Positions 51-54,135 of a stretch of 64,000 nt of DNA are shown here, one piece after another (position 1 is the first letter of the stretch; each line of letters begins with the position of its first letter). This DNA comes from Hymenobacter pini. Lineage in GTDB: Bacteria > Bacteroidota > Bacteroidia > Cytophagales > Hymenobacteraceae. Position numbers and translations under genes: made by a program. The stretch is from positions 310,001-374,000 of the forward strand of contig NZ_JAIZZH010000005.1 of assembly GCF_020421205.1 (NCBI RefSeq), read 5' to 3'. A model generated the notes under the pieces. That model did not search any database, was not told the origin of the DNA, and worked only from the letters and a program-made list of their open reading frames with translations.

Positions 51-182
51 AGAGCTTAGAATTGAGAACTGAGAGCCTAGAGTTGAGAAGTGGACGCGGG
101 CCTGGTTCTTATGTTCAGCCTGTGTTCACCTTTTGTTTCTAGACCCTCGGTTCTCAATTCTAAGTTTTCAATTCCAAGCTCT
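51..182. repeat. Inverted heptad array, copy 1 (AGANNTG type)
   Basis: Six 7-base units run without a break from 51 to 92: agagctt, agaattg, agaactg, agagcct, agagttg, agaagtg. The complement of about 139-182 reads as a second array of the same kind (agagctt, ggaattg, aaaactt, agaattg, agaaccg, agggtct), so the two arrays face each other as arms of a long imperfect hairpin. The right arm ends on the stop codon of the histidine kinase gene. Four further copies lie at 7874-7964, 33181-33267, 44343-44418 and 54051-54135. The unit structure is read directly; any function (terminator, mRNA end protection, recombination scar) is inference. Confidence 0.85.
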
Positions 183-3100
183 CACACAGGCACGCTCAAT
201 TGCAGCGTGGTTCCCTGGCCGGGGGCCGAATGAATGGTGAGTTGGCCCCGCATGGCCGCGGCCCGGGCGCGCATATTGACTAGGCCGTTGCCGCTGCCCC
301 GCGCCGGTGCAGTCGGGTCGAAGCCCACGCCGTCATCGTGCACGGTGAGTAATAGTCTTCCCTGTTCATATTCCAGGGTAATGGTAGCGTGCTGGCAGCG
401 GGCGTATTTTACCAGGTTGTTGAGGGCTTCCTTGAACAGCAGAAAAAACTCGCGGCGGGTGCGCATATCAAACCGCAGGCCCGGCAGCACCGCGTCATCG
501 GCCCGGAAGGTTAGCTCCACTCCCGCCGCTTCCAGCATTTCGGAAGCCAGCCGCCGCATACGGGCAGTTACATCGTCGAGGCCATCGTGGGCGGGGTTGA
601 TGGCCCACACAATATCGTCCATGGCATCCAGCATCCGGCGCGACGATTCTCCTATTTGCTCCAGCACGGCGGCGGCCTGCTCGGGCCGGTGCTGGCGCTG
701 GTGGTTGCGGGCAATCTGGCTCAGGATGGAGATGCTGCTGAGCGTGGAGCCCATATCGTCGTGCAGGTCGCGGGCAATACCGTGGCGCACCCGCTCTAGG
801 GCCAGCAGCTGGCGCACCCGAAGCCGGTACAACAGAAAGAGTCCCGCCAGCACTATCCAGCTCAGTCCAATCCGAAACCACCAGGTTCCGTACCAGGGTG
901 GGTCTACTAAAATGCGCAGGCTGGTTCCCACCGGGCTCCATACCCCGTCGTTGTTAGCGGCCCGCACCCGAAAGGTGTAGGTGCCGGGGTCGAGGTTGGT
1001 ATAGGTAACCTCATGCCGGTTGCCCGCCTCAATCCAAGCGGGGTCAAAGCCTTCCAGCCGGTAGGCATACCGGTTTTTCTCGGGCTGCCGATAGTTGAGC
1101 GCCGCAAATTCCAGCGTAAATACATAGTCCTCGGGGGCCAGGCGCAACTTGCGCCGCTCGGTGATGGTAGTATCGGCTAGCTCTACGGGCTGGTTGAAAC
1201 GCCGCAGGGCCGTGAGTACCACGGGCGGCGGCACCGGGTTGGTACGCACAGCTTCGGGTCGAAAAGCCACCACCCCGTTCACTCCCCCAAAGTACAAGCT
1301 GCCCGCCGCCGAGCGGTGGCAGGCTGCGGCGTTGAACTCATCCTGCAGCAGCCCGTCGCGCGAGTCGAACGTGAGAAACTGCCGGGTGCGGGGCGTGAAG
1401 CGGGCCAGCCCTTGGTTGGTAGCCAGCCACAGGTTACCCCGGGCGTCTTCCAGCATGCTGTACACCACGTCATTGGGCAGGCCCTGGGCTTCCCGTAAAG
1501 TGGTGAAGCGGCCCCGCACCGGGTCGTCGAGCCGGGCAAAGCCGCCCCCTTCCGTGCCCACCCACAACGTGCCCTGCCGGTCCTGCAACACGCTGCGCAC
1601 CGAGTTGCTGCTTAGCCCGTTGGCAGTGCGCTCATCTACCCGAAAAGTGGTAAAACGGCCCGTAGCGGGGTTGAAGCGCGAGAGTCCGCCGCCTCCGGTA
1701 GCCACCCAAAAACGCCCCTGCCGGTCCTGCAGCGTGGCCCGCACGTAGTTGTTCGGCAAACTGCCGGGGTTGGCGGGGTCGTGGCGGAAGGCGGTGAAGC
1801 GGCCGGTAGCCGGGTTATAACACGACAGCCCGCCGCCATTGTGCCCCACCCACAGCTTGCCCTGCGGGTCCTCGTACACCGATTGAATTAGGTCATCGGC
1901 CAGTGAATACGGGTTGGCCGGATCGTGACGAAAACGCACAAACCGCTTGCTACCCGGCTCCAGGCAGTTGAGCCCCTGGCTTTGCGTGCCCACCCACAAC
2001 CGGCCACGCCGGTCGAAACACAGCGCCCGCACATAGTCCTGGCTGAGGCTGCCTGGGTCGGTGGGGTTGTGCCGAAACTGCTGCTGCTGGCCCGTAGCGG
2101 GGTCGTAGCACAGCACGCCCTGCTGCTCGGTGCCCAGCCACACCCGGCCGGCAGCATCGGAGGCTATGGCCCATACCGGCCCGGTAGCCACGGCGGTGGG
2201 CACGCTCCCAAACACGGACGGACGCAAATCGGCCCGGCTCAGACCGGCTTCCGTGCCTACCCACAGCATCCCGGCCTGATCCTGAAATATCGCCTGCACC
2301 GTGTTATCGGGCAGACTTTGGGGGTTACGGGGTTGGTGCTGCTGAAACCGGAACGTGCCAGTTGGCGCATCGTAGCGGGCCAGCCCGGCACCTGTGCCAA
2401 TCCACAAGGTGCCGGCCCGGTCTTCAAAAATCGTTTTAATGCTAATGGTGCCTGATTTGCCGCGAGTAACGGCGGCTAGGGTTACCACCCGGGCCGCGCC
2501 TCCCCCGGGAGGCAGGTAGTGCAGCGCCCCGGTTTCGGTGCCTACCCACAGTCCGCCTCGGTGGTCGGCGCACAGTGCTTTGATGGGGCCAGCGGCCGGC
2601 AGGCGGGTATCGGGCACCAGGCAGTTGCGCACGGTGTCCAGCCAGCTCACACCGCCTTCGCCGGTGCCGGCCCACAGCCGCCCGGCCCGGTCTTGGGCCA
2701 GTGCCCGCACCGCATTGCGCCGGACGCTGCCGCCCGGCCCCGCCTGGTGCCGGAACGACGTAAAGCGCTGCGTAGCGGCCTGGAAGCGGTGCAGCCCACT
2801 TTCGGTGCCGGCCCACACGCGCCCTTGCCGGTCGCATAGTACCGTCAGCACAAAGTTGTCGGGCAGGCCGCTGGCGTCGCCGGGGGCGGCCCGAAACGTG
2901 CGAAACCGGCCGGTAGCAGGATCATAGCGCGACAGGCCCCCACCGGTACCGGCCCACAGGTACCCCGCCGAATCCTGACACAACGCCAGCACGAAATTGC
3001 TGCCCAGGCTGGCGGACTGCCGGGCATCGTTCCGGAATGTGCGGAAGCTCACCCCATCATAGCGCGAAAGGCCATCCTGGGTAGCAACCCACAAAAAGCC

Positions 3101-3259
3101 CCGCCGGTCCTGCACCACCGCATACACGCTGTTTTCGGCCAGGCCATCCTGCGCGGTGAGGGTGCGAAATGCCAGCGCCGGCTGGCTTGCCGCGGGCCGG
3201 CTCAGGAGCAGCCCAACCAGCCCGAGCAAAAGCGCACATACAGGAATGAGACGTTTCAT
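182..3259 (-). CDS. Two-component-regulator propeller sensor histidine kinase
   Basis: The 1025-residue product is a membrane sensor kinase. Residues 1-25 form a signal peptide. Residues about 30-680 carry more than ten repeats of the form G-x-LWVGT-x-x-GL-x-R, the periplasmic propeller. A Y_Y_Y domain follows at about 725-795, then one membrane helix at about 800-818. The dimerisation domain is of the HisKA_3 (NarX/LytS-like) type, with the phosphoacceptor His near 833 in RDLHDDMGSTL. The ATPase domain has the N box EALNNLVKYA near 945, DDGVGFD near 975 and GNGLVNM near 990. No receiver or DNA-binding domain is fused, unlike the long Bacteroides hybrid systems, and no response regulator gene lies in the window, so the partner must be elsewhere. 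The ligand cannot be read from sequence. Confidence 0.95.
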   Translation of the reverse strand: MKRLIPVCALLLGLVGLLLSRPAASQPALAFRTLTAQDGLAENSVYAVVQDRRGFLWVATQDGLSRYDGVSFRTFRNDARQSASLGSNFVLALCQDSAGYLWAGTGGGLSRYDPATGRFRTFRAAPGDASGLPDNFVLTVLCDRQGRVWAGTESGLHRFQAATQRFTSFRHQAGPGGSVRRNAVRALAQDRAGRLWAGTGEGGVSWLDTVRNCLVPDTRLPAAGPIKALCADHRGGLWVGTETGALHYLPPGGGAARVVTLAAVTRGKSGTISIKTIFEDRAGTLWIGTGAGLARYDAPTGTFRFQQHQPRNPQSLPDNTVQAIFQDQAGMLWVGTEAGLSRADLRPSVFGSVPTAVATGPVWAIASDAAGRVWLGTEQQGVLCYDPATGQQQQFRHNPTDPGSLSQDYVRALCFDRRGRLWVGTQSQGLNCLEPGSKRFVRFRHDPANPYSLADDLIQSVYEDPQGKLWVGHNGGGLSCYNPATGRFTAFRHDPANPGSLPNNYVRATLQDRQGRFWVATGGGGLSRFNPATGRFTTFRVDERTANGLSSNSVRSVLQDRQGTLWVGTEGGGFARLDDPVRGRFTTLREAQGLPNDVVYSMLEDARGNLWLATNQGLARFTPRTRQFLTFDSRDGLLQDEFNAAACHRSAAGSLYFGGVNGVVAFRPEAVRTNPVPPPVVLTALRRFNQPVELADTTITERRKLRLAPEDYVFTLEFAALNYRQPEKNRYAYRLEGFDPAWIEAGNRHEVTYTNLDPGTYTFRVRAANNDGVWSPVGTSLRILVDPPWYGTWWFRIGLSWIVLAGLFLLYRLRVRQLLALERVRHGIARDLHDDMGSTLSSISILSQIARNHQRQHRPEQAAAVLEQIGESSRRMLDAMDDIVWAINPAHDGLDDVTARMRRLASEMLEAAGVELTFRADDAVLPGLRFDMRTRREFFLLFKEALNNLVKYARCQHATITLEYEQGRLLLTVHDDGVGFDPTAPARGSGNGLVNMRARAAAMRGQLTIHSAPGQGTTLQLSVPV

Positions 3260-6100: not shown

Positions 6101-7867
6101 TTACTTGCCCGCTACTACATCGGTTTTGATGCTCAGCTCCTTCAACTGCGCGTCCGAAATCTGGGAGGGCGAGTCAATCATCACGTCGCGGCCGGAGTTG
6201 TTTTTGGGGAAGGCAATGAAGTCGCGGATGCTGTCGGCGCCGCCGAAGAGGCTGCAGAGACGGTCGAAGCCGAAGGCAATACCACCGTGGGGCGGCGCAC
6301 CGTACTCGAAGGCGTCGAGCAGGAAGCCGAACTGGGCCTGGGCCTCCTCGGGGCTGAAGCCGAGCAGCCCAAACATCTGAGCCTGCACCGAGCGGTCGTG
6401 GATGCGGATGGAGCCGCCGCCCACTTCCACGCCATTAATCACCATATCGTAGGCGTTGGCGCGCACCTCCCCAATTGTGTCGGGCGAGGCCAGCAGGGGC
6501 ACGTCCTCGGGCTTGGGCGAGGTAAAGGGGTGGTGCATGGCGAAGTAGCGGCCTTCTTCCTCGATGTACTCGAGCAGGGGGAAATCAACCACCCACAGGG
6601 CCGAGAAAGTGTCTTTGTCGCGCAGGCCAAGGCGTTGGCCCATTTCCAGGCGCAGCTCCGAGAGGGCCTTGCGGGTTTTGTTCGGCTCGCCAGCCAAAAT
6701 CAGCAGCAAGTCGCCGGGCTGAGCGTTGAAGGCGGCCTTCCACTGCTGCAGCGCCTCCTGCGAGTAAAATTTATCTACCGACGATTTCACCGAGCCATCG
6801 GCTTCCACGCGGGCGTACACCAGGCCGGTGGCGCCAATCTGGGGGCGTTTTACGTATTCAGTCAGCTCGTCGAGCTGCTTGCGGGTGTAGCTGGCCGCGC
6901 CAGTAGCGCAGATGCCCACTACCAGCCCGGCAGCTTCAAACACCGGGAAGCCGTAGCCCTTGGCCACGTCGTTCAGCTCCACAAACTTCATCTCGAAGCG
7001 CGTGTCGGGCTTGTCGTTGCCGTAGTAGCGCATGGCGTCGGCGTAAGTCATGCGGGGCAGCTGGCCAATTTCCAGGCCCTTCACCTCCCGGAACAGGTAC
7101 TGCACCAGCCCTTCGAAGGTGTTGAGGATGTCCTCCTGCTCCACAAACGACATTTCGCAGTCAATCTGCGTAAATTCGGGCTGACGGTCGGCCCGCAAGT
7201 CCTCGTCGCGGAAGCATTTTACAATCTGGAAGTACCGGTCAAAGCCCGATACCATCAGCAGCTGCTTGAAGGTTTGGGGGCTCTGGGGCAGGGCGTAGAA
7301 CTCGCCGGGGTTCATGCGGGAAGGCACCACAAAGTCGCGGGCGCCTTCGGGCGTACTCTTAATGAGCACCGGGGTTTCCACTTCGATGAAGTCCTGGCCG
7401 TCGAGGTAGCGGCGGGTGGCCTGGGCCACGCGGTGGCGCAGCATCAGGTTCTGGCGCACGGGCGTGCGGCGCAGGTCCAGGTAGCGGTACTTCATCCGCA
7501 GGTCGTCGCCGCCGTCGGTGTCATCCTCAATCAGGAAAGGCGGCAGCTTGGCGGGGTTGAGCACCTCCAGTTTTTCCACCCGAATTTCAATGGCCCCGGT
7601 GGGCATTTTGTCGTTTTTGGAGTGGCGTTCGGCTACTTTACCGGTCACGCACACCACAAACTCGCGGCCCAGTTGCCGGGCCTGCTCGCGCACCTCGGCC
7701 GTTTCCACGCCTTCTTCCAGGGCCAGCTGCGTGAGGCCATACCGGTCGCGCAGGTCCACCCACAGAATACCGCCTTTGTCGCGGGTGCGCTGCACCCAGC
7801 CGCAGAGCGTAACGGTTTGACCAACGTGTTCGGGGCGCAATTCGCCGCAGGTATGAGTCCGGAGCAT
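6101..7867 (-). CDS. aspS: Aspartate--tRNA ligase
   Basis: A 588-residue bacterial-type class IIb aminoacyl-tRNA synthetase that charges tRNA-Asp. The N-terminal OB-fold (residues 1-105, with [20 protein letters not shown]) binds the anticodon. The catalytic core shows PETPQSP-like [16 protein letters not shown], motif 2 [18 protein letters not shown] and motif 3 [10 protein letters not shown]. The GAD insertion domain typical of bacterial AspRS lies between at about 290-410. I start at 7867 ([10 protein letters not shown]); an upstream in-frame ATG at 7921 lies in a repeat. The 5' leader contains an inverted heptad array. Two small membrane-protein genes follow with minimal spacing. Confidence 0.98.
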
Positions 7868-7873
7868 TTCGGT

Positions 7874-7964
7874 AGAACTGAGAAGTGAGACCTTAGAGCT
7901 GAGTAAGCATGTAGTTGGCACAGGTCCGTTACTTCTCTTGCTTCCTATTTCTCAGCTCTGAGTT
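7874..7964. repeat. Inverted heptad array, copy 2 (AGANNTG type)
   Basis: Units agaactg, agaagtg, agacctt, agagctg run from 7874 to 7901. The complement of about 7930-7964 reads agaactc, agagctg, agaaata, ggaagca, agagaag. The element lies between the probable aspS promoter and the aspS start codon, so it should be transcribed as a hairpin in the aspS leader. Confidence 0.85.
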
Positions 7965-7977
7965 CTGGTAAGAATAG

Positions 7978-8629: not shown

Positions 8630-8710
8630 TGTCATTCCGAACGAAGGGAGGAATCTGGGTTTAATACCTGAACGGACTAACCCAGATTCCTCCCTTCGTT
8701 CGGAATGACA
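8630..8710. repeat. GTCATTCCG-type hairpin element, copy 1
   Basis: Two perfect inverted arms of 32 bp (8630-8661 and 8679-8710) flank a 17-base loop. The outer sequence TGTCATTCCGAACGAAGG matches that of the element at 9409-9506. It begins two bases after the stop codon of the preceding gene. Confidence 0.95.
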
Positions 8711-9408: not shown

Positions 9409-9506
9409 CGTCATTCCGAGCGAAGCCGAGGAATCTCGCGTGCTGATGTTGGGTTTACTTCCATAACGTCAGCACGCGAGATTCCTCGGTTTCGCTCGGA
9501 ATGACG
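9409..9506. repeat. GTCATTCCG-type hairpin element, copy 2
   Basis: Arms of 42 bp (9409-9450 and 9465-9506) differ at two positions only, both of which still allow G-U pairing, around a 14-base loop. The outer 26 bases resemble copy 1 at 8630, while the inner parts differ. It fills the gap between a secreted-protein gene and tadA and contains a false upstream start codon for tadA. Confidence 0.95.
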
Positions 9507-12455: not shown

Positions 12456-13751
12456 ATGAGTACCAAGTTGCGTCTCACTATTCTGAGCTTCCTGCAGTTT
12501 TTTATCTGGGGCTCATGGCTGATAACTATCGGCGCGTACTGGTTCCAGACGAAGCAATGGTCGGGGGCGCAGTTTGGGGCCATTTTCTCCACGATGGGCA
12601 TTGCCTCCATCTTCATGCCCTCCATTATGGGCATCATTGCCGATAAGTATGTGAATGCCGAGAAACTCTACGGCATCCTGCACATTCTGGGCGGGATAGT
12701 GCTGTGCACGGTACCCATGGTAACGGACCCCGGCACCTTCTTCTGGGTGATTCTGCTGAACATGATTTTCTACATGCCCACGCTGGCCCTCAGCATTGCC
12801 GTATCGTACTCGGTGCTGAAGCGCCAGGGCCTGGATGTGGTAAAGGACTACCCGCCCATCCGGGTGTGGGGCACCATCGGCTTCATTGTAGCTATGTGGA
12901 CGGTGAGCTTGCTGGGCTTCGAGAAATCGGCCAGCCAGTTCTACGTGGCCGCCGCCGCGGCTTTTGCGCTGGGTATCTACTCGTTTACGCTGCCCGCTTG
13001 CCCGCCCACGGCCAAAGACACGCCCAGCCGCTCATTGGTTGATGTGATGGGCCTGAAGTCGTTTGCGCTGCTGCGCGACACCAAGATGCTCACCTTCTTC
13101 CTGTTCGCGCTGCTGCTGGGTGCCGCCCTGCAGCTCACCAACGCCTACGGCGACACCTTCCTGCACGATTTCGACAAAGTACCCGCCTACAAGGACACGT
13201 TTGCCGTGAAGTACCCGGCTATCATCATGTCCATCTCGCAGGTATCGGAAACGCTGTTTATTCTGGCTATTCCGTTCTTCCTGCGCCGCTTTGGTATCAA
13301 GCAGGTAATGCTGTTCAGCATGATTGCCTGGGTGCTGCGCTTCGGCCTGCTGGCCTTCGGCACCCCCGATTTCCCCGGCATCACGCTGGTTATCCTCTCG
13401 TGCATCGTGTACGGCATGGCCTTCGACTTCTTCAACATCTCGGGCTCGTTGTTCGTGGAAACCCAGACGGCTTCCAGCATCCGGGCCAGTGCCCAAGGCC
13501 TGTTCATGATGATGACCAACGGTTTCGGGGCCGTGCTGGGCAGCTCGGTGAGCGGCATCGTCATCGAGAAATACTTCACCGCCGCCGATGGTGTAACCAA
13601 GGACTGGCAGGGCATCTGGCTCACGTTTGCCGCCTACGCCCTCGTTATTGCCGTGCTGTTCGTGCTCCTGTTCAAGCACAAGCACACGCCCCAGGAAGCC
13701 ACCACTGATGCCGAGCACGTAGAGCCCGTTCTGAGCGTAGAAAACGCCTAA
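12456..13751 (+). CDS. Nucleoside:proton symporter-like MFS transporter
   Basis: A 431-residue inner-membrane protein with about twelve helices. The N-terminus (LRLTILSFLQFFIWGSWL, then GAYWF) and the FDFFNISGSLFVE motif in the second half match the nucleoside permease branch (NupG/XapB-like) of the major facilitator superfamily. The gene faces ndk, a nucleotide kinase, in convergent order, which fits but does not prove a nucleoside role. A TATCTTTA box near 12408 may be its -7 element. The stop codon lies inside a long palindrome shared with ndk. Confidence 0.88.
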   Translation: MSTKLRLTILSFLQFFIWGSWLITIGAYWFQTKQWSGAQFGAIFSTMGIASIFMPSIMGIIADKYVNAEKLYGILHILGGIVLCTVPMVTDPGTFFWVILLNMIFYMPTLALSIAVSYSVLKRQGLDVVKDYPPIRVWGTIGFIVAMWTVSLLGFEKSASQFYVAAAAAFALGIYSFTLPACPPTAKDTPSRSLVDVMGLKSFALLRDTKMLTFFLFALLLGAALQLTNAYGDTFLHDFDKVPAYKDTFAVKYPAIIMSISQVSETLFILAIPFFLRRFGIKQVMLFSMIAWVLRFGLLAFGTPDFPGITLVILSCIVYGMAFDFFNISGSLFVETQTASSIRASAQGLFMMMTNGFGAVLGSSVSGIVIEKYFTAADGVTKDWQGIWLTFAAYALVIAVLFVLLFKHKHTPQEATTDAEHVEPVLSVENA

Positions 13752-13940
13752 ATCACAGATTTAGACGGATGTTGAGGATGACACGGATTTGTATAACCGC
13801 TGCGCCTAACAATAATGTAGAACAACAAAAAGCCCGCTTGCAGCAGCAAGCGGGCTTTTTGTTGGCAGACTTTTCAGACAAACCACGAATCCAGAACGAA
13901 TCCGTGTCATCCTCAACATCCGTCTAAATCCGTGATTTAG
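13748..13940. repeat. Long palindrome spanning both stop codons of a convergent pair
   Basis: Arms 13748-13789 and 13899-13940 match over about 42 bp with one mismatch. The TAA of the transporter (13749-13751) and the TAA of ndk (13937-13939) sit at mirror-image positions in the two arms. The core reads atttagacggatgttgagg in the left arm. A separate terminator hairpin is nested in the 109-base interior. Confidence 0.93.
13823..13864. terminator. Bidirectional terminator between transporter and ndk
   Basis: A perfect 19-bp stem (13823-13841 with 13846-13864) with tetraloop AGCA and A/T runs on both sides, able to end transcription from either direction. Confidence 0.92.
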
Positions 13941-19186: not shown

Positions 19187-20167
19187 ATGCTTTCTTTTGC
19201 CCGTTTTCTGAGTGCAGCGGTGTTTTCCTTGACGGTGGTCTGCTGGCCATCGGGGGTTGCCCGCGCACAAACCGTCCCACCCGCTTTCAATCGGCTTAGC
19301 TCGAGGCTCGAATACCGCATTTATCGCCCCGAAAACGGCCGTTACGCGCTGCAACCGGCCCTACCGGCCACCGGCAACCCCGCGTATTCAGCCCGTATCG
19401 GGCAGATACTAAGCGCCCATCTGCAGTTCCGGACGGCTACCGACTCGGTACTGATGCACTCGCGCCGCCAGAACCGCAACCAGCCTGTGCGCATTCCGCT
19501 GGATACGGTGCGCCGGCAGCAGCGCGGCACGGTGGAAGAAGCCCTTTCCCTGCTACAGCCCGGCGACTCAGGGGTGTTCCGGCTGAACCTGGATACTGTG
19601 TTTCTGAAGTCGTTCCGGCAGCCGGTGCCGCCGTTCATTCGCCGGGCAGGCTCTACGCTCACGGTGCTGGCGAAGGCAGAGAAGATCCAGACGCAGGAAC
19701 AGGCCATGCAGGATTTCCAGCAGGAGCAGCTGCGGGCCCAGCAAGAGGCCAAGAAACAGGCTGCCGCGCTGGCCCTCAAACAGGACGCTCAGATTCAGGC
19801 CTACCTGAAGCAGAATAAGCTGAAAGGCATCAAAACTCCCAGTGGGCTGTATTATGCTATTACCAAAGCCGGTACCGGGGCCAAGCCCAAAGCCGGTCAA
19901 ACAGTATCGGTGCTGTACACGGGCATGCTCCTAAACGGCAAAGTATTCGATGCTTCCTCGCGTAATGGCAACAAGCCCATTGAGTTTCCCCTGGGCCAGG
20001 GCCGCGTTATTCCGGGCTGGGACCAGGGTATTGCCCTGCTACCCAAAGGCTCCAAAGCAGTACTCCTGATTCCCTCGGCGCTGGCTTACGGCCCCCAGGG
20101 CGCAGGGGGTGATATCCCGCCCAACAGCATTTTGCGCTTCAATGTGGAGCTGGTGGGCGTGAAATAA
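19187..20167 (+). CDS. Two-domain secreted FKBP-type prolyl isomerase (FKBP 6)
   Basis: A 326-residue protein with a signal peptide ending ARAQ. It repeats the design of FKBP 1: diverged N-terminal FKBP-like domain (RTATDSVLMHSRRQ, LLQPGDSGVF, RQPVPPFIRRAG), a Gln/Ala-rich coiled linker, and a canonical C-terminal domain (VFDASS, VIPGWDQGI, LAYGPQGAGG, LRFNVELVGV). Identity with FKBP 1 is high through both domains. FKBP 1 is lipidated but this one is not. A GTG at 19133 would add 18 residues; the ATG at 19187 gives a better signal peptide. Its last codons lie inside a terminator palindrome. Confidence 0.9.
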   Translation: MLSFARFLSAAVFSLTVVCWPSGVARAQTVPPAFNRLSSRLEYRIYRPENGRYALQPALPATGNPAYSARIGQILSAHLQFRTATDSVLMHSRRQNRNQPVRIPLDTVRRQQRGTVEEALSLLQPGDSGVFRLNLDTVFLKSFRQPVPPFIRRAGSTLTVLAKAEKIQTQEQAMQDFQQEQLRAQQEAKKQAAALALKQDAQIQAYLKQNKLKGIKTPSGLYYAITKAGTGAKPKAGQTVSVLYTGMLLNGKVFDASSRNGNKPIEFPLGQGRVIPGWDQGIALLPKGSKAVLLIPSALAYGPQGAGGDIPPNSILRFNVELVGVK

Positions 20168-20221
20168 GCAAGAAGGGGTGGCAGTGTAGTACTGCCGCCC
20201 CTTCTTGCTTATTTCACGCCC
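20155..20221. terminator. Bidirectional terminator palindrome between FKBP 6 and recO
   Basis: Arms of 31 bp (20155-20185 with 20191-20221) with a single G-U position and a 5-base loop. The left arm includes the last codons and stop of FKBP 6; the right arm touches the stop of recO. Confidence 0.92.
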
Positions 20222-20949
20222 TACAACTCGGCCAATACCTCCGACAGTACGGCCAGGGAGCGGACGTCGCCGAGGTGCTCCACGTGCAGCTGGTAGTAGC
20301 GAATGAGCACATCCAGCAGCTCGCGCCGGATGCGGCCGTTTGGAATAGCCGCAGCACCAGGCTGGTGTAGCAGCGCATCAAAATACTGCTCAAACTCCTG
20401 AAAACGCATAGCAGCCGGAGTGTGGCGCACAACTGAGGTACTGTTGCCACCTTCGGCGGCAAACGCAACCTGCGAGGTAATTTCCTCACCGGTTTCGGGG
20501 CCAAAACCCAAATAGTGGCTGAGTTGTAGCAAAAACTCCAGCGCAAAATTCTCAAAGCCGGTTTCCTGCTGGTCGAATGCTTGGATGGCGTCGTGCAAGA
20601 AGGCGAAAAGTGGTTCGTTCTGCTCTTCTTCCTGCAATACCCGCCCCACAATTTCTGATAGAAAAAGGGCCACACTGCTCTTGCGCACATCGTAGGGCAG
20701 GGTGCGGAACGGCTCGGAGCACCGGTACTCAGAGAGCCGGGTGAGGCCACCGCTCCGGGAGGTATAGGCCACCAAATCGAGCAGCGTGAACGGTTGAAAC
20801 AGGGCAATGCGGCCGGGGGGCTTGGCTTTGCGCACCCCATTCACCACGTAGCTCTGCAGCCCTAACTGCTCGGTGTACACGCGGGCAATGATGCTGGTTT
20901 CGCGGTAACGCAGGTAGCTGAGCACAATGCCCCGGGTTTTGATGAGCAT
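20221..20949 (-). CDS. recO: DNA repair protein RecO
   Basis: A 242-residue protein that helps load RecA at single-strand gaps (RecFOR pathway). The N-terminal OB-fold is seen as MLIKTRGIVLSYLRYRET, then ARVYTEQLGLQSYVVNGVR, and a helical domain follows with LFLSEIVGRVL and ENFALEFLLQLSHYLGF. The zinc-type cysteines found in some RecO proteins are absent, as is common in Bacteroidota. It lies 62 bases downstream of porZ on the same strand and may be co-transcribed with it. Confidence 0.95.
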   Translation of the reverse strand: MLIKTRGIVLSYLRYRETSIIARVYTEQLGLQSYVVNGVRKAKPPGRIALFQPFTLLDLVAYTSRSGGLTRLSEYRCSEPFRTLPYDVRKSSVALFLSEIVGRVLQEEEQNEPLFAFLHDAIQAFDQQETGFENFALEFLLQLSHYLGFGPETGEEITSQVAFAAEGGNSTSVVRHTPAAMRFQEFEQYFDALLHQPGAAAIPNGRIRRELLDVLIRYYQLHVEHLGDVRSLAVLSEVLAEL

Positions 20950-31705: not shown

Positions 31706-32242
31706 CTACCGGCTCCGGCGCCGCGTGGGGAAGAATACCAACTGAATAATCAGCAGCGTGAGGCCGGTGTAGAGCGTACTCACCACAATTTTGGCCAGCG
31801 TAATACCCGGCACGCGGAAAGAACCCAGCTCAAGCAGAAAAAATGCCACGTGGTGAATACTTATCAGCATCGCCAGGTACACCACCATCCACTGCCAGCC
31901 CATTTGGTGGATGTTCACCGCATCCTGGGAGTCGTACCCGTCGCGGGGCGTAAGCAACCGCAACACCCAGGGCCTCAAGTACATAATCAGCACGGCGGCG
32001 GCCGCATGTACGCCCCCGGTATCAAATACGGTATCCAGAGTGATGCCCGTGAGGAAGCCCAGCAGCAGCTGTACCACAATGGGCGTATTGATAGGCAGAA
32101 ACAGCAAAAAGCCCAGATAAATCAGGCACCAGCCCAGGTTGAACAGCACAAAATCGGTGCCGCTGATGAGCAGCACATAGAGCGCCAGGTACAGAATACC
32201 CCGGCCGGCCTGCCACAATATTTCCAGTACGCCGCCTCTCAT
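31706..32242 (-). CDS. mreD: Rod shape-determining protein MreD
   Basis: A 178-residue membrane protein with five or six helices that links MreC to the elongation machinery. Identified by position, length and hydropathy, and by segments such as FLLFLPINTPIVVQLLLGFLT. Its ATG overlaps the mreC stop (ATGA), which points to translational coupling. Confidence 0.92.
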   Translation of the reverse strand: MRGGVLEILWQAGRGILYLALYVLLISGTDFVLFNLGWCLIYLGFLLFLPINTPIVVQLLLGFLTGITLDTVFDTGGVHAAAAVLIMYLRPWVLRLLTPRDGYDSQDAVNIHQMGWQWMVVYLAMLISIHHVAFFLLELGSFRVPGITLAKIVVSTLYTGLTLLIIQLVFFPTRRRSR

Positions 32243-33165
32243 GGTCGTTCCTCTGCTTCGGGTTTAATGCCGGCCCGGGCTTCTACCGTATCTCGCTCGG
32301 CCTTGGGGCGACTGGTTACCAGGTACACATACGTCAGGCGGGAGAAATCCACGGCCAGCCGCACCTGCACCGTCCAAAAGTTCTTATCCGGCTCCTTCAC
32401 AAACGACTCAATAGTGCCGATGCGTACGCCCTCCGGGAATACGGCATTGTAGCCCGAGGTAACCACCGTGTCGCCGCGCACCAGCTTGTTCTGGCGGGGT
32501 ACGTTGTCGAGCAGCACGTGCGTGGGGTCGTCGCCCAGCCAGCGTACGGTGCCAATCGTACCATCACGCTGAATGCGGGCCGAAATAGCTGATTTAGAAT
32601 GTAGAACTGAGGTAATGGTAGTGTAGTGCGGGGACGCTACTTTCACGCGGCCCACTACGCCCTCAGCCGATATCACCCCCATGCCCAGTTTCACGCCATC
32701 TACCGTGCCCACATTCAAGGTTAGGTAGTTATCCACGCGGCGTTGCGTGCTACTTACCACCCGGGCCGGAATCAGCGGGTAGTCGGGGTCATGAGCGGCC
32801 AGCTGGCGCAAGCCCAGCAATAATGAGTCAGGACGGCCCAGCAACCGCAGGCGGGCCTGCGTTACGCTGTCTTTGCTAACCGGCAGCGAATCGGCTTGGC
32901 GGCGGCCTAAATCAGAAGGGTACAACTGTTGGCGCAGGCGGGCATTTTCGTGCATCAACTCCCGGTTCACGTCAATCAGCCGGAAATAGTCCTGCACCTG
33001 CGTGCGCCAATCCAGCACCTGCCCTACATAGGCGTTGGCCGAGTTGAAAAACGCCGCCCGCTGGTAGGAGCTGTTGCGCACCAGCAGGTACAAGCTCAAT
33101 ACTTCCAGCACCGCAAATACCAAGATGCCCCGGTAGCGAAACAGAAAGTTGAGCAGGTTATTCAT
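32239..33165 (-). CDS. mreC: Rod shape-determining protein MreC
   Basis: A 308-residue bitopic protein. One N-terminal helix (about 12-28) and a coiled segment (DVNRELMHENARLRQQL) precede the beta-barrel domains, with VISAEGVVGRVKVASPHYTTI and GDTVVTSGYNAVFPEGVRIG typical of the family. MreC binds PBP2 and activates wall synthesis. It is separated from mreB by an inverted heptad array. Confidence 0.96.
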   Translation of the reverse strand: MNNLLNFLFRYRGILVFAVLEVLSLYLLVRNSSYQRAAFFNSANAYVGQVLDWRTQVQDYFRLIDVNRELMHENARLRQQLYPSDLGRRQADSLPVSKDSVTQARLRLLGRPDSLLLGLRQLAAHDPDYPLIPARVVSSTQRRVDNYLTLNVGTVDGVKLGMGVISAEGVVGRVKVASPHYTTITSVLHSKSAISARIQRDGTIGTVRWLGDDPTHVLLDNVPRQNKLVRGDTVVTSGYNAVFPEGVRIGTIESFVKEPDKNFWTVQVRLAVDFSRLTYVYLVTSRPKAERDTVEARAGIKPEAEERP

Positions 33166-33180
33166 GGAAATGAGACATAA

Positions 33181-33267
33181 GACAGTGAGAAGTGAGAAGT
33201 GAGACTTCGTTCAACCACTCCCACACGGGAACCGGAACGAAAATCTCACTTCTCACTTCTCACTGTC
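33181..33267. repeat. Inverted heptad array, copy 3, inside the mre operon
   Basis: Arms 33181-33204 and 33244-33267 are perfect 24-bp complements built from the heptad agaagtg, around a 39-base spacer. The element fills the mreB-mreC gap and should form a hairpin in the shared message. Confidence 0.93.
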
Positions 33268-33278
33268 TCGCTTCTAAA

Positions 33279-34304
33279 CTACGTCAGCAGTACGCTGCGG
33301 AAGGCGGGGATATTTTTGATGGCGGCACCGGTGCCGCGCACTACGGCGCGCAACGGGTCCTCGGCAATGTGAATGGGCAGCTTGGTTTTGGCCGCCAGGC
33401 GCTTATCCAGCCCGCGCAGCAACGCGCCACCACCGGTCAGATGAATCCCGTTTTCGTAGATGTCGGCCGACAACTCGGGCGGCGAAATTTCCAGGGCCTT
33501 TAGTACGGCTTCCTCAATTTTGGCCACCGATTTATCCAGGGCAATGGCAATTTCCGAGGAGGTTACTTTGATAACCTTCGGAATACCCGTCATCAAATCC
33601 CGGCCGCGCACTTCGAAATCGGGGGGTGTTTGCTCCAGCTCGGTGAGGGCCGCGCCCACTTCAATCTTGATGCGCTCGGCGGAACGCTCGCCGATGAGCA
33701 GGTTGTGCTGGCGGCGCATGTAGTCCAGAATATCCTGGTTGAATACGTCGCCGGCGGTTTTGATGCTCTGGTCGCACACGATACCCGACAGGGCAATTAC
33801 CGCAATTTCGGTGGTGCCCCCTCCTATGTCGATAATCATGGAGCCCACGGGCTGCTCCACGTCGATGCCGATGCCGATGGCGGCGGCCATGGGCTCCTGA
33901 ATCATCCACACCTCCTTGGCCCCGGCGTGCTCCGCGGAGTCACGCACGGCGCGCTTTTCCACCTCCGTAATACCGCTCGGAATGCAGATAACCATACGGT
34001 GGGAAGGCTGGAACAGGCGGGTGCGGGTGTCAATCATCTTGATGAGCCCCTTGATCATCTCCTCCGCGGCGTGGAAGTCGGCAATTACGCCGTCCTTCAG
34101 CGGGCGGATGGTTTTGATGTTGTCGTGGGTCTTCTCGTGCATCTGCTGCGCCTGCCGACCCACGGCAATTACTTTATTGGTAGTGCGGTCTTTTGCAATG
34201 ATGCTCGGCTCATCCACCACGATTTTATCGTTGTGAATGATGAGCGTGTTGGCCGTGCCCAGGTCAATGGCTATGTCGCTGGTCAGAAAATTGAAGAAAC
34301 CCAT
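33279..34304 (-). CDS. mreB: Actin-like cell shape protein MreB
   Basis: A 341-residue actin homologue that guides lateral wall synthesis. It has the phosphate 1 loop DLGTANTLI, phosphate 2 loop IDIGGGTTEIAVI, and the adenosine motif LTGGGALLRGLD near the C-terminus. The start at 34304 (MGFFNFLTSDIAIDLG) is the family start. A -7 box TACTTTTG lies at 34358-34365 on this strand, 54 bases upstream. Confidence 0.98.
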   Translation of the reverse strand: MGFFNFLTSDIAIDLGTANTLIIHNDKIVVDEPSIIAKDRTTNKVIAVGRQAQQMHEKTHDNIKTIRPLKDGVIADFHAAEEMIKGLIKMIDTRTRLFQPSHRMVICIPSGITEVEKRAVRDSAEHAGAKEVWMIQEPMAAAIGIGIDVEQPVGSMIIDIGGGTTEIAVIALSGIVCDQSIKTAGDVFNQDILDYMRRQHNLLIGERSAERIKIEVGAALTELEQTPPDFEVRGRDLMTGIPKVIKVTSSEIAIALDKSVAKIEEAVLKALEISPPELSADIYENGIHLTGGGALLRGLDKRLAAKTKLPIHIAEDPLRAVVRGTGAAIKNIPAFRSVLLT

Positions 34305-34671
34305 CGAGTTACGGCAAGTGAATGAGAACGGGCTGGTTGCGCCCGTTAAAAGTGGGGCAAAAGTAAGCAAGTTTCAGCGAAGCTGCAGCCTGAGTTTCTG
34401 CACGCTGCCACGCTGGCGGATGCTATAACGCTGCTCGGCGCCGTATATGACATTTCTCACTCTTATTTAGTGTACAGCCAGTTGCCAGCTGCTCATAATG
34501 TCATCAGTTTTATTTCTTAAATCATATTTCAACATTTTTAAACAACACGTCAGTAACTCGTAATATATACTAATCAAGCCGCTCTATTTCCACTGACCAT
34601 AGTGGAGATTATCTGGGGTTTGTCCAAAGAAAAAGGTGGTAGCTTTACTACTCACCATTTTTGATTTTTTC
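34305..34671. other. AT-rich divergent region between mreB and a PKD lipoprotein gene
   Basis: About 367 bases without a gene, with an AT-rich stretch at 34440-34600 unlike the rest of the window. It contains the mreB -7 box (34358-34365, minus strand) and, for the lipoprotein gene, TTTG at 34619 with TAGCTTTA at 34640, spaced 17 bases. Confidence 0.6.
34358..34365 (-). promoter_or_regulatory. -7 box of mreB
   Basis: The minus strand reads TACTTTTG, an exact TAnnTTTG, with no clear -33 box. Confidence 0.5.
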
Positions 34672-35004: not shown

Positions 35005-35090
35005 CCTCCGGGCACCGTAAGCAAACAGCAACGGCCGGCTACCCAATCCAAGGTAGCCGGCCGTTGCTGTTTGCTTACGGTGCCCGGAGG
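35005..35090. terminator. Perfect 38-bp-arm palindrome between the PKD gene and purH
   Basis: Arms 35005-35042 and 35053-35090 are exact complements over 38 bp, with a 10-base loop. The right arm ends directly at the purH stop. It can terminate both convergent genes, though it lacks U runs and is much longer than a normal terminator. Confidence 0.93.
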
Positions 35091-44099: not shown

Positions 44100-44336
44100 C
44101 TATTGATTGTCGCGCCACTCGTACACCCACTTGGCTTGAATCTGCTCCAGGTGACCCTCGTTGGCCTGTTCGCGGGTGCCTTCGAAGTTGGGCAGGCTCA
44201 GCACCCACTCCAGCAAATCGGTGAAGCGGATGCGGTAAATTTTTGCCTCAGAAAAGTCGTCACCGAACTTCTCGTACAGCGCCATGGCAATATCCTCATG
44301 GTCGCTCCACTGCATCGGGGGCTCAAAGTGGTTCAT
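44100..44336 (-). CDS. iscX: Fe-S assembly protein IscX
   Basis: A 78-residue acidic protein. MQWSDHEDIAMALYEKFGDDF, then RFTDLLEWVLSLPNFEG and a C-terminal IQAKWVYEW, match IscX (YfhJ), which binds IscS and frataxin and tunes cluster assembly. In proteobacteria iscX follows fdx; the same order fdx-iscX holds here, supporting the call. The rest of the isc set is not in the window. The start at 44336 could also be the ATG seven codons later. Confidence 0.9.
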   Translation of the reverse strand: MNHFEPPMQWSDHEDIAMALYEKFGDDFSEAKIYRIRFTDLLEWVLSLPNFEGTREQANEGHLEQIQAKWVYEWRDNQ

Positions 44337-44342
44337 AAATCT

Positions 44343-44418
44343 GTTGTCAGTTGCGAGTTGGCAGTTGTCAGGACAGGCATCAGCAAAAACTAGCAACTGA
44401 CAACCTACTACCGACAAC
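44343..44418. repeat. Inverted heptad array, copy 4 (GTTGNCA type), between fdx and iscX
   Basis: Units gttgtca, gttgcga, gttggca, gttgtca run from 44343 to 44370. The complement of 44391-44418 reads gttgtcg, gtagtag, gttgtca, gttgcta. The 7-base period is the same as in copies 1-3 but the unit sequence differs. Confidence 0.87.
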
Positions 44419-44425
44419 TCAAAAA

Positions 44426-44755
44426 TTAGTGGCCCAAGAAGTTCTGGGGTGGAATCTGCACTACAATGTCCTGGTTGCCCTGCACCACGCACTGGCAGCC
44501 CAAGCGGGAGTTGATGCGGGGGTTGATGGCGCGGTCAATGAAATCTTCCTCTTTGTCGGAAATTTCGGGCAGGTCGTTTTCGCCCTGCAGAATGTACACG
44601 TGGCAGGTGCTGCAGCCGCACACGCCGCCGCAGTTGTGCTGCAGCTGAATGTCGTTGTTGAGGGCCACGTCCAGCACCGATTCGCCCTCGGCGGCCACGT
44701 GCGTCTGGTCGGGCTGGCCGTCCTGAAACTTGAAGGTGATATGTACGGCTTTCAC
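44426..44755 (-). CDS. fdx: 2Fe-2S ferredoxin of the adrenodoxin/Isc type
   Basis: A 109-residue electron carrier. Three cluster ligands lie in HNCGGVCGCSTCHVYI (Cys-x5-Cys-x2-Cys), and the fourth is in SRLGCQCVV near 85. The acidic helix EISDKEEDFIDRA fits the adrenodoxin class, which delivers electrons in Fe-S assembly. It lies upstream of iscX on the same strand with a strong promoter. Confidence 0.95.
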   Translation of the reverse strand: MKAVHITFKFQDGQPDQTHVAAEGESVLDVALNNDIQLQHNCGGVCGCSTCHVYILQGENDLPEISDKEEDFIDRAINPRINSRLGCQCVVQGNQDIVVQIPPQNFLGH

Positions 44756-48868: not shown

Positions 48869-48914
48869 CCCAATAAAAAGGCTCCGGTAAATCTACCGGA
48901 GCCTTTTTATTGGG
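48869..48914 (-). terminator. Terminator of the ccm cluster
   Basis: A perfect 21-bp stem (48869-48889 with 48894-48914) with loop AATC and A/T runs, nine bases beyond the ccmF stop. Confidence 0.94.
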
Positions 48915-53156: not shown

Positions 53157-53396
53157 CTATTCCTGCACTTCCTTTTCCAAGCGCGACAGGCGGCGGTCCA
53201 GTGAAATCAGGAAGAACAGCAGGCCAGCCAGCACCACGGCAATAACGGCCACTACCACGTAGATTTTGCCGCTTTGGCGCAGGGCATCGGCCATTTCGGG
53301 CTGGTCGGCCGTTTGAGCCGATACGCGCAGTACAGGCAGCAACATGGCTACTAGCAGGGCCAGTAAGGGGCGGAGCTTACGCAAGCTGTTTTTCAT
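53157..53396 (-). CDS. ccmD: CcmD-family membrane protein
   Basis: A 79-residue protein with a signal-like N-terminus (ending VSAQ) and a C-terminal membrane helix KIYVVVAVIAVVLAGLLFFLI followed by DRRLSRLEKE. This form, longer than the proteobacterial CcmD, is common in Bacteroidota ccm clusters and may help release holo-CcmE. It overlaps the ccmC stop by 20 bases. Confidence 0.85.
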   Translation of the reverse strand: MKNSLRKLRPLLALLVAMLLPVLRVSAQTADQPEMADALRQSGKIYVVVAVIAVVLAGLLFFLISLDRRLSRLEKEVQE

Positions 53397-54048
53397 ATAC
53401 TTTGAGTTTGAGCAAGGAAACGCGGCTGGCCAGCTGGGCCAGCCAGAACGCCAGCAGCGTCCAGCCAATCACGGCCGGATAGAATACCAGCCGCATGTTG
53501 CTATCAAGGTCGTACTTAGCGAAGGCCGGGTTGCCGCCCGCCCCGGGGTGCAAAGAGTCCGTGAGGCGGGGCAGGATGTAGAACAGCGGCATAGCCGTGG
53601 CAAAGGCGAAGATGTTGTAGATGGCCGATACCCGGGCCCGCTGCTGCTCATCGGTAAAGGAGGAACGCAACACCAGGTAAGCCCCGTAGATGAGCATGGC
53701 AATGGCCGCGCCGTTCAGCTTGGGGTCGTTGGTCCACCACGCGCCCCAGGTGTACTTGGCCCAGATACTACCCGTGGCCAACCCCACAAACCCCATCAGA
53801 ATACCCGTCCGGGCTGATTCGTGGGCCTGGATATCCAGTTCCGGTGTGGGGTTGCGCAGGTAGCGCACCGAGTAATACACCGAAGCCAGCAGGATGAACG
53901 TCATCCCAAACCACATGGGCACGTGGAAATACAGGTTCCGGATACTCTCATTGAGAATAGCCAGCCGGGGCACCGGCATGAGCAGGCCCGCTACTGCCAC
54001 ATACAGCAGCAGTATTACACTAAGAGCTTTCCACCAGTTTTTTTTCAT
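53377..54048 (-). CDS. ccmC: Haem transporter/loading protein CcmC
   Basis: A 223-residue protein with six helices and the tryptophan motif as WGAWWTNDPKLNG. CcmC loads haem onto CcmE. The periplasmic histidines needed for haem appear in LYFHVPMWFG and in the later loops. The start at 54048 follows an inverted heptad array, which separates it from ccmB. Confidence 0.95.
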   Translation of the reverse strand: MKKNWWKALSVILLLYVAVAGLLMPVPRLAILNESIRNLYFHVPMWFGMTFILLASVYYSVRYLRNPTPELDIQAHESARTGILMGFVGLATGSIWAKYTWGAWWTNDPKLNGAAIAMLIYGAYLVLRSSFTDEQQRARVSAIYNIFAFATAMPLFYILPRLTDSLHPGAGGNPAFAKYDLDSNMRLVFYPAVIGWTLLAFWLAQLASRVSLLKLKVYEKQLA

Positions 54049-54050
54049 GA

Positions 54051-54135
54051 GGAGTCAGGAGCTAGGAGCTAAGAGGCGGGAACCAAAAGCCGATGTACAT
54101 CTCTCGGCTTCCGGCTCCTGACTTCTAGCTTCTCC
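54051..54135. repeat. Inverted heptad array, copy 5 (GGAGCTA type), between ccmB and ccmC
   Basis: Units ggagtca, ggagcta, ggagcta, agaggcg, ggaacca, aaagccg run from 54051 to 54092. The complement of 54101-54135 reads gaagcta, gaagtca, ggagccg, gaagccg. The right arm contains the last codons and the stop of ccmB, so the repeat forms part of that gene. Confidence 0.87.

Follow-up and report, generated by a model that had tools for sequence, protein, structure and literature searches.

A dispersed family of facing heptamer arrays in Hymenobacter gene spacers, with hairpins that appear to be kept while their sequences are replaced

Intergenic hairpins built from two facing arrays of 7-nt units, or of 8-nt units in a minority of cases, form a dispersed, genome-wide family in the Hymenobacter genome analysed here. 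As judged from the comparison of orthologous sites, related species often have a hairpin in the same place with a wholly different sequence, an indication that what persists is the fold rather than the letters. Our preferred reading, which we hold with about as much belief as doubt, is that these are dispersed hairpin repeats in the spacers and leaders of cotranscribed genes, which would be transcribed, kept for their RNA structure, and remade by slippage, copying between arms and replacement.

Five facing-array elements in a 64-kb window

The window, meaning the whole 64-kb stretch of DNA that was analysed, is part of a genome of 5.15 Mb in 15 contigs, and its MreB shares 99% identity with the H. 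metallilatus protein. A sequence-only reading of the window had proposed that five sites share a design of inverted 7-base arrays, with AGANNTG units at three sites, GTTGNCA at one and GGAGCTA at one. The units were correctly assigned, and individual inspection bore out the design, with two facing arrays of ~7-nt units and a loop between them at all five sites. Tandem Repeats Finder gave a best period of 7 at four sites and of 14 at site 1, and a lag scan across the window found eight period-7 regions, every one inside the five sites. An Rfam search of the window returned no match. The elements and their neighbours are as follows.

51..182, no strand: element 1, AGANNTG-type facing arrays, core arms 55-81/138-164
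182..3259, minus strand: hybrid two-component sensor gene, upstream of element 1 (Pfam Reg_prop, Y_Y_Y, HisKA_3, HATPase_c)
6101..7867, minus strand: aspS, aspartyl-tRNA synthetase, 588 aa, ATG start codon at 7867
7873..7966, no strand: element 2, facing arrays in the aspS leader, core arms 7888-7906/7948-7966
32239..33165, minus strand: mreC, downstream cistron of element 3 (Pfam MreC)
33167..33274, no strand: element 3, AGAAGTG facing arrays occupying the mreB-mreC spacer, core arms 33180-33207/33241-33268
33279..34370, minus strand: mreB, upstream cistron of element 3 (Pfam MreB_Mbl)
44100..44336, minus strand: IscX-type gene (Fe-S_assembly), downstream cistron of element 4 (Pfam PF04384)
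44343..44420, no strand: element 4, GTTGNCA facing arrays in the ferredoxin/IscX-type spacer, core arms 44343-44359/44388-44404
44426..44755, minus strand: 2Fe-2S ferredoxin-type gene, upstream cistron of element 4 (Pfam Fer2)
53377..54048, minus strand: cytochrome c assembly gene, downstream cistron of element 5 (Pfam Cytochrom_C_asm)
54050..54135, no strand: element 5, GGAGCTA facing arrays, core arms 54050-54075/54101-54126

Four of the five sites lie right after a stop codon or within a codirectional gene pair (the sensor kinase end, mreB-mreC, ferredoxin-IscX, and the ORF/cytochrome c assembly pair). Element 1 sits immediately 3' of the stop codon of the two-component sensor kinase, and the array of element 5 extends into the upstream ORF and provides its final codons and stop: this ORF ends AGA AGC TAG, where relatives have CGG TCC TGA, and both read R, S, stop. 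Element 2 had been placed beside a plus-strand ORF; it actually occupies the leader of the minus-strand gene aspS, with a promoter-like TACCTTCGC on one side and, a few nucleotides away on the other, the aspS start codon. Folded as RNA, element 3 (whose arms are 96% complementary) reaches z = -10.0, followed by element 1 at -6.0, element 4 at -3.9 and element 5 at -2.9. Element 2 has the poorest fold of the five (z = -0.4), no better than shuffles.

Facing arrays far exceed chance across the genome

To count as an element, an array of period p needed an inverted partner that was itself periodic. With this detector, 864 kb of the genome yielded 31 paired period-7 elements, compared with 0 in a Markov shuffle and 0-5 for each of the control periods 5, 8, 9, 10, 11 and 13. 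Over 1.264 Mb, there were 43 elements at period 7, and 2, 2, 3 and 0 at periods 5, 10, 11 and 13. The sequence-only reading had proposed a real family with a common design and different units, and this held up: period 7 is clearly in excess of shuffled sequence and of other periods, and not at the five sites alone.

After filtering, 49 elements remained in the 1.264 Mb, which extrapolates to about 200 per genome. Their median arm is 29 nt and their median loop 33 nt. The expectation that the 7-base period is retained stands for 40 of the 49 and fails for the other nine, which have 8-nt units. One of the 49, L050:4113, belongs to a separate palindrome family and was left out of later tests; this family, GCGAGGACGAAGGACGAAGCAATCC, is itself dispersed (L050:4113-4266 and at least five other loci of the same genome), with copies ~80% identical including the loop.

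The elements fit tightly between codirectional genes

With gene calls from a purpose-written simple codon-usage script, whose exact starts may err (it misplaced the aspS start), the element edges lie a median of 6 nt 3' of the stop codon and 8 nt 5' of the start codon, too close for a promoter to fit in ahead of the next gene. The arrays occupy 85% of the spacer and end at the gene boundaries. Codirectional genes flank 40 of 47 elements, compared with 324 of 474 spacers in the 60-200 bp range (Fisher p = 0.019), a modest orientation bias, and few elements fall in convergent or divergent spacers. A strong stem is lacking altogether in about two thirds of the spacers between codirectional genes, and such hairpins are therefore not needed generally.

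Strong stems are found in 87% of convergent and 2% of divergent spacers, which speaks for intrinsic transcription terminators. As an account of the present elements, however, termination is extremely unlikely: they lie mainly inside operons, between codirectional genes with no space for a promoter before the next start, their loops are long (~33 nt), and the stems at the window sites are not followed by a U-tract.

The stem persists at the mreB-mreC spacer while its sequence is exchanged

The comparison at mreB-mreC covered 81 spacers, namely the window's own and those of 80 other Hymenobacter-type loci. A strong stem was present in 95% of them, against 39% of the other spacers at the same loci, and the median fold z was -6.3, against -0.9 for the other spacers. 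A strong gapless stem was missing in 4 of the 81. The units vary (GAATTAA, AGAAGTG, GGAGCTA, the 8-nt ATGGCTGA, GTTATGA, CATTTAA and others) and change even among near-identical species, and some spacers carry an unrelated CGTCAT...ATGACG palindrome instead of arrays. Long, near-perfect palindromes of the CGTCATTCCGAGCGAAG...ATGACG family also occur in the window at 8630-8710 and 9409-9506 and at loci L072, L076, L077, L081 and L089; in relatives, they either take the place of the heptamer hairpin in the corresponding spacer or are nested in its loop.

Clustering of the 81 spacers gave 11 classes, with at least 34 class changes on the 81-tip gene tree compared to 48.8 when labels were shuffled; turnover at this spacer is therefore rapid yet non-random. 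Individual cases show how complete the changes can be. For example, the sister loci L093 and L100 are 95-100% identical along most of the length of the mreB and mreC flanks, falling to 82% only in the final 50 nt of mreB, and their hairpins are wholly different from stop codon through start codon. The L093 spacer is 84% similar to that of L120, a more distant species. Similarly, L079 and L091 have a common hairpin, with loops 97% identical, and each is nearer by its genes to species with other hairpins. Among pairs separated by <0.30 substitutions/site, the mean core alignment score was 17.5 for the same unit, 7.6 for different units and 6.1 for shuffles. Since different-unit cores score barely above shuffles, the usual event is replacement of the whole element: loop and unit are usually exchanged together, and mostly do not drift in place. 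The earlier description of the units as "drifting" thus does not fit, as close species mostly replace unit and loop together and unit families have expanded genome by genome.

The same pattern, a kept hairpin with differing units, was seen at the ferredoxin-IscX spacer and in the aspS leader, where the hairpins of relatives are built of different units. At the mrdA-rodA spacer, the loops of L071 and L080 appear homologous and the units are related (AAGTAAG / AATTAAG), so some unit drift does happen. An element can also lie within a gene: at L137:4875-4981, in one Hymenobacter MAG, a GTTTCT facing-array element is found in the coding sequence of purH, where it occupies a linker that varies among relatives.

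Whole-unit exchange bears on whether the arrays could be binding sites for a translational regulator, as has been suggested for TAACTGA repeats, which are direct heptamer repeats preceding start codons in Beggiatoaceae, Cyanobacteria and a few Bacteroidetes (PMC4679880). In the present elements, a median of 8 nt separates the end of the 3' arm from the start codon, and one Hymenobacter unit family, CAACTGA, is similar to TAACTGA. Yet a sequence-specific binder would not tolerate units that are wholly different at the same gene in close species, and we regard this explanation as very improbable. The two systems also share intergenic heptamers just 5' of start codons whose presence varies among relatives at the same spacer, but TAACTGA repeats are direct repeats of one unit, with a single inverted case, whereas the Hymenobacter elements are facing arrays of many units, of which only CAACTGA is similar.

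Slippage and mirrored arms in the making of the arrays

At the mrdA-rodA spacer, related species carry near-pure arrays of GAAGTAT x6, GAATTAA x14 and GAATTAT x>10, which show slippage and fresh expansion, and support the replication slippage that had been put forward from the window alone.

The two arms also tend to mirror one another in the order of their unit variants. In-register unit identity was 0.834, compared with 0.734 when units were permuted (36 of 38 elements of the genome, p = 5e-9; 36 of 39 elements in relatives), in a test that used only the aligned register, omitted the identity permutation, and took the best-scoring register, somewhat favouring the observed order. An earlier shuffle of unit order that allowed the best register had low power per element and gave only a small excess. 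Mirrored variants fit template switching between arms, or selection on pairing, or both. Hairpin-driven copying between arms, as first proposed, is thus compatible with the data, although selection on the stem predicts the same pattern.

Independently of the unit, G outnumbers C in the 5' arm of 45 of 48 elements of the genome, and the 3' arm shows the opposite. Stop codons were considered as a purpose of the units. A stop triplet is present in 94% of left arms, only 1.2-fold over column-permuted units, and stops are a minor factor at most.

The main rival to the preferred reading, which we consider somewhat unlikely, is that the elements are neutral spacer filler, in which slippage at ~7 nt and quasi-palindrome template switching build and perfect facing arrays in any unconstrained sequence, with no need for a function. 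Hairpins can be created and maintained by template switching (PMC8794818), and 7 nt has been proposed as a DNA polymerase slippage length (Mrazek 2007, as cited in PMC4679880). The pure expansions, the element in the variable purH linker, and the way that arrays fill the spacer up to the gene boundaries would all be expected of such filler. It does not account for a stem that persists at one spacer across 95% of 81 species when only 39% of the other spacers have strong stems, nor for the scarcity of elements between convergent and divergent genes, and in-place slippage is unable to explain either joint swaps of arms and loop or genome-specific unit families. A mutational bias toward palindromes could be an alternative source of the stem conservation.

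Unit families have expanded genome by genome

Exact GTTGTCA pairs were found in 41 of 101 Hymenobacter genomes, with 0 in 60 and a maximum of 19. NGTTKCT pairs were found in 12 of the 101, and the genome analysed here tops the list with 21. Reversed-pattern controls for the paired searches gave 0. Unit families expanded in this genome-by-genome fashion point to dispersal. Beyond the genus, an exact GTTGTCA pair occurred in one Bacteroidota genome among those sampled, AATTAAG pairs were confined to the genus in the genomes sampled, and a scan of 20 stretches belonging to further genera of the same order yielded two period-7 candidates, one of them convincing.

Separately, high-GC contigs from a viral collection contain facing GTTGTCA/GTTGTCG arrays, up to several per 10 kb, as well as GTGGAGC and GGATTTT arrays (L308, L309, L313 (IMGVR_UViG_3300043379_000009); L307, L310, L312, L314), so the design extends beyond Hymenobacter. 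Searches of plasmids gave no match with a simple-repeat query that a low-complexity filter may have masked.

Dispersal raises the possibility of a mobile hairpin repeat, MITE- or REP-like, that is moved by a transposase in trans and has the arrays as its terminal inverted repeats. Along with the per-genome expansions, the arms of 45 of the 49 elements in this genome resemble other loci, three Y1_Tnp genes are present, and loops of the GTTGTCA family repeatedly contain the motif GGTCGTTC/GAACGACC (10 of 66 loops, 0.04 expected), with a weaker trend among the genome's own loops (3 of 47, 0.4 expected). However, the loops are mostly unshared between loci, the motif is missing from most elements of other families, and the few filled and empty sites that were compared showed no target-site duplication. 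We therefore judge this second rival unlikely. More speculative, and rather improbable, is the notion that species-specific 7-8-nt facing arrays are written into mRNA spacers by dedicated Hymenobacter machinery, such as a template-carrying polymerase or a nuclease-polymerase that processes hairpins, with both arms changing together at many loci and the hairpin retained as a structural part of the operon.

Relation to known heptamer repeats and palindromes

The sequence-only reading knew of no description of paired inverted arrays of drifting heptamers; to call them undescribed is too strong. Cyanobacterial STRR are usually 7-bp repeats, with possible hairpins between hupS and hupL for which transcript stabilisation or translational coupling was suggested (PMC2670836), and the P6b stem of the Nostoc tRNA-Leu (UAA) intron is made of Class I and Class II heptamers, one class taking the place of the other with the fold retained (PMC4476775).

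Like STRR, the Hymenobacter elements are tandem 7-nt units (8-nt in the minority), intergenic, in many copies and several unit types, and some STRR also form hairpins in operon spacers. One unit, TTGTCAG, is even identical: Nostoc PCC 7120 has 44 copies of ttgtcagttgtcagttgtca, which corresponds to the unit family of site 4 and is recorded as not forming a hairpin (PMC2408588), although 7 nt are too short to show homology. STRR are found in filamentous cyanobacteria, whereas the present family is in Hymenobacter, a member of the Bacteroidota; and apart from the Nostoc array being without a hairpin, neither a systematic facing layout nor replacement at orthologous sites across many species is reported in PMC2670836 and PMC2408588. 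The P6b stem shares the facing-heptamer layout and the swap of a whole unit class with the fold kept, but it is one locus in a group I intron with two classes only, and the Hymenobacter window has no Rfam match.

Other comparisons are more distant. REP elements of the GTAG and CGTC superfamilies are, like the present elements, short extragenic palindromes (PMC3733652) in many copies, but they have a constant short stem with a GTAG or CGTC tag and no tandem-unit arms, and no constant stem or tag was seen in the Hymenobacter elements inspected. With MITEs in mind, arms are common to several loci, but loops mostly are not. The template-switch (quasi-palindrome) process likewise preserves complementarity by copying one arm from the other, but it is a mutation process rather than an element family and yields no 7-nt period. 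A literature search on Hymenobacter intergenic inverted repeats, in which subscription journals were thinly covered, found none. What is new is thus the genome-wide facing layout in Bacteroidota, the many-unit vocabulary and the replacement at orthologous sites; heptamer hairpins themselves were already known.

A possible role as structural RNA

Under the preferred reading, the element would act as transcribed RNA through its structure, the long stem most likely being an mRNA processing or stability element. The duplex might be a substrate for RNase III or another double-strand RNase, might serve as an exonuclease barrier, or both. The hairpin would then let adjacent cistrons differ in level, and coupling of the cistrons may be affected as well. 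We propose that, if the stem works by structure, its sequence would be nearly free. Turnover could have three sources. First, the polymerase may slip within arrays. Second, template switching may occur between the hairpin arms. Third, an element may be replaced wholesale by another, which either arrives by recombination with a different species or spreads from another locus.

This structural-RNA reading is supported by the stem kept with many unrelated sequences at mreB-mreC, and likewise at ferredoxin-IscX and the aspS leader; by the codirectional placement and tight fit between stop and start; and, as to turnover, by the mirrored variants, the pure expansions, the L093/L100 swap and the genome-specific unit families. 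It is weakened by the aspS copy, which folds like shuffles, by the four mreB-mreC spacers without a strong gapless stem, by the many stemless codirectional spacers, and by the modest size of the orientation bias.

The elements offer a natural case of intergenic secondary structure that is seemingly conserved although the sequence behind it is thrown out and written anew, even with near-identical flanking genes, and alignment-based RNA discovery would overlook them. With ~200 loci per genome and more than 100 genomes, they provide a data set for asking why bacterial repeats favour a length of 7 nt, how arm complementarity is kept up, and whether hairpins between cistrons determine the stoichiometry of operons, as might be the case for mreB/mreC.

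Other inverted repeats

The window also has inverted repeats that are not built of heptamers, at 13748-13940 (45 nt, 96%), 20147-20229 (39 nt, 90%), 35005-35090 (39 nt, 100%) and 48869-48914 (21 nt, 100%), the last of which resembles a terminator. Finally, in an 8-nt GGTGAGAT family (L029:2135-2231, L098, L062, L071) the loop GATGTTC...GCGC...GAACATC is conserved across loci and species, unlike in the 7-nt families, and this family looks closer to a classical mobile repeat.
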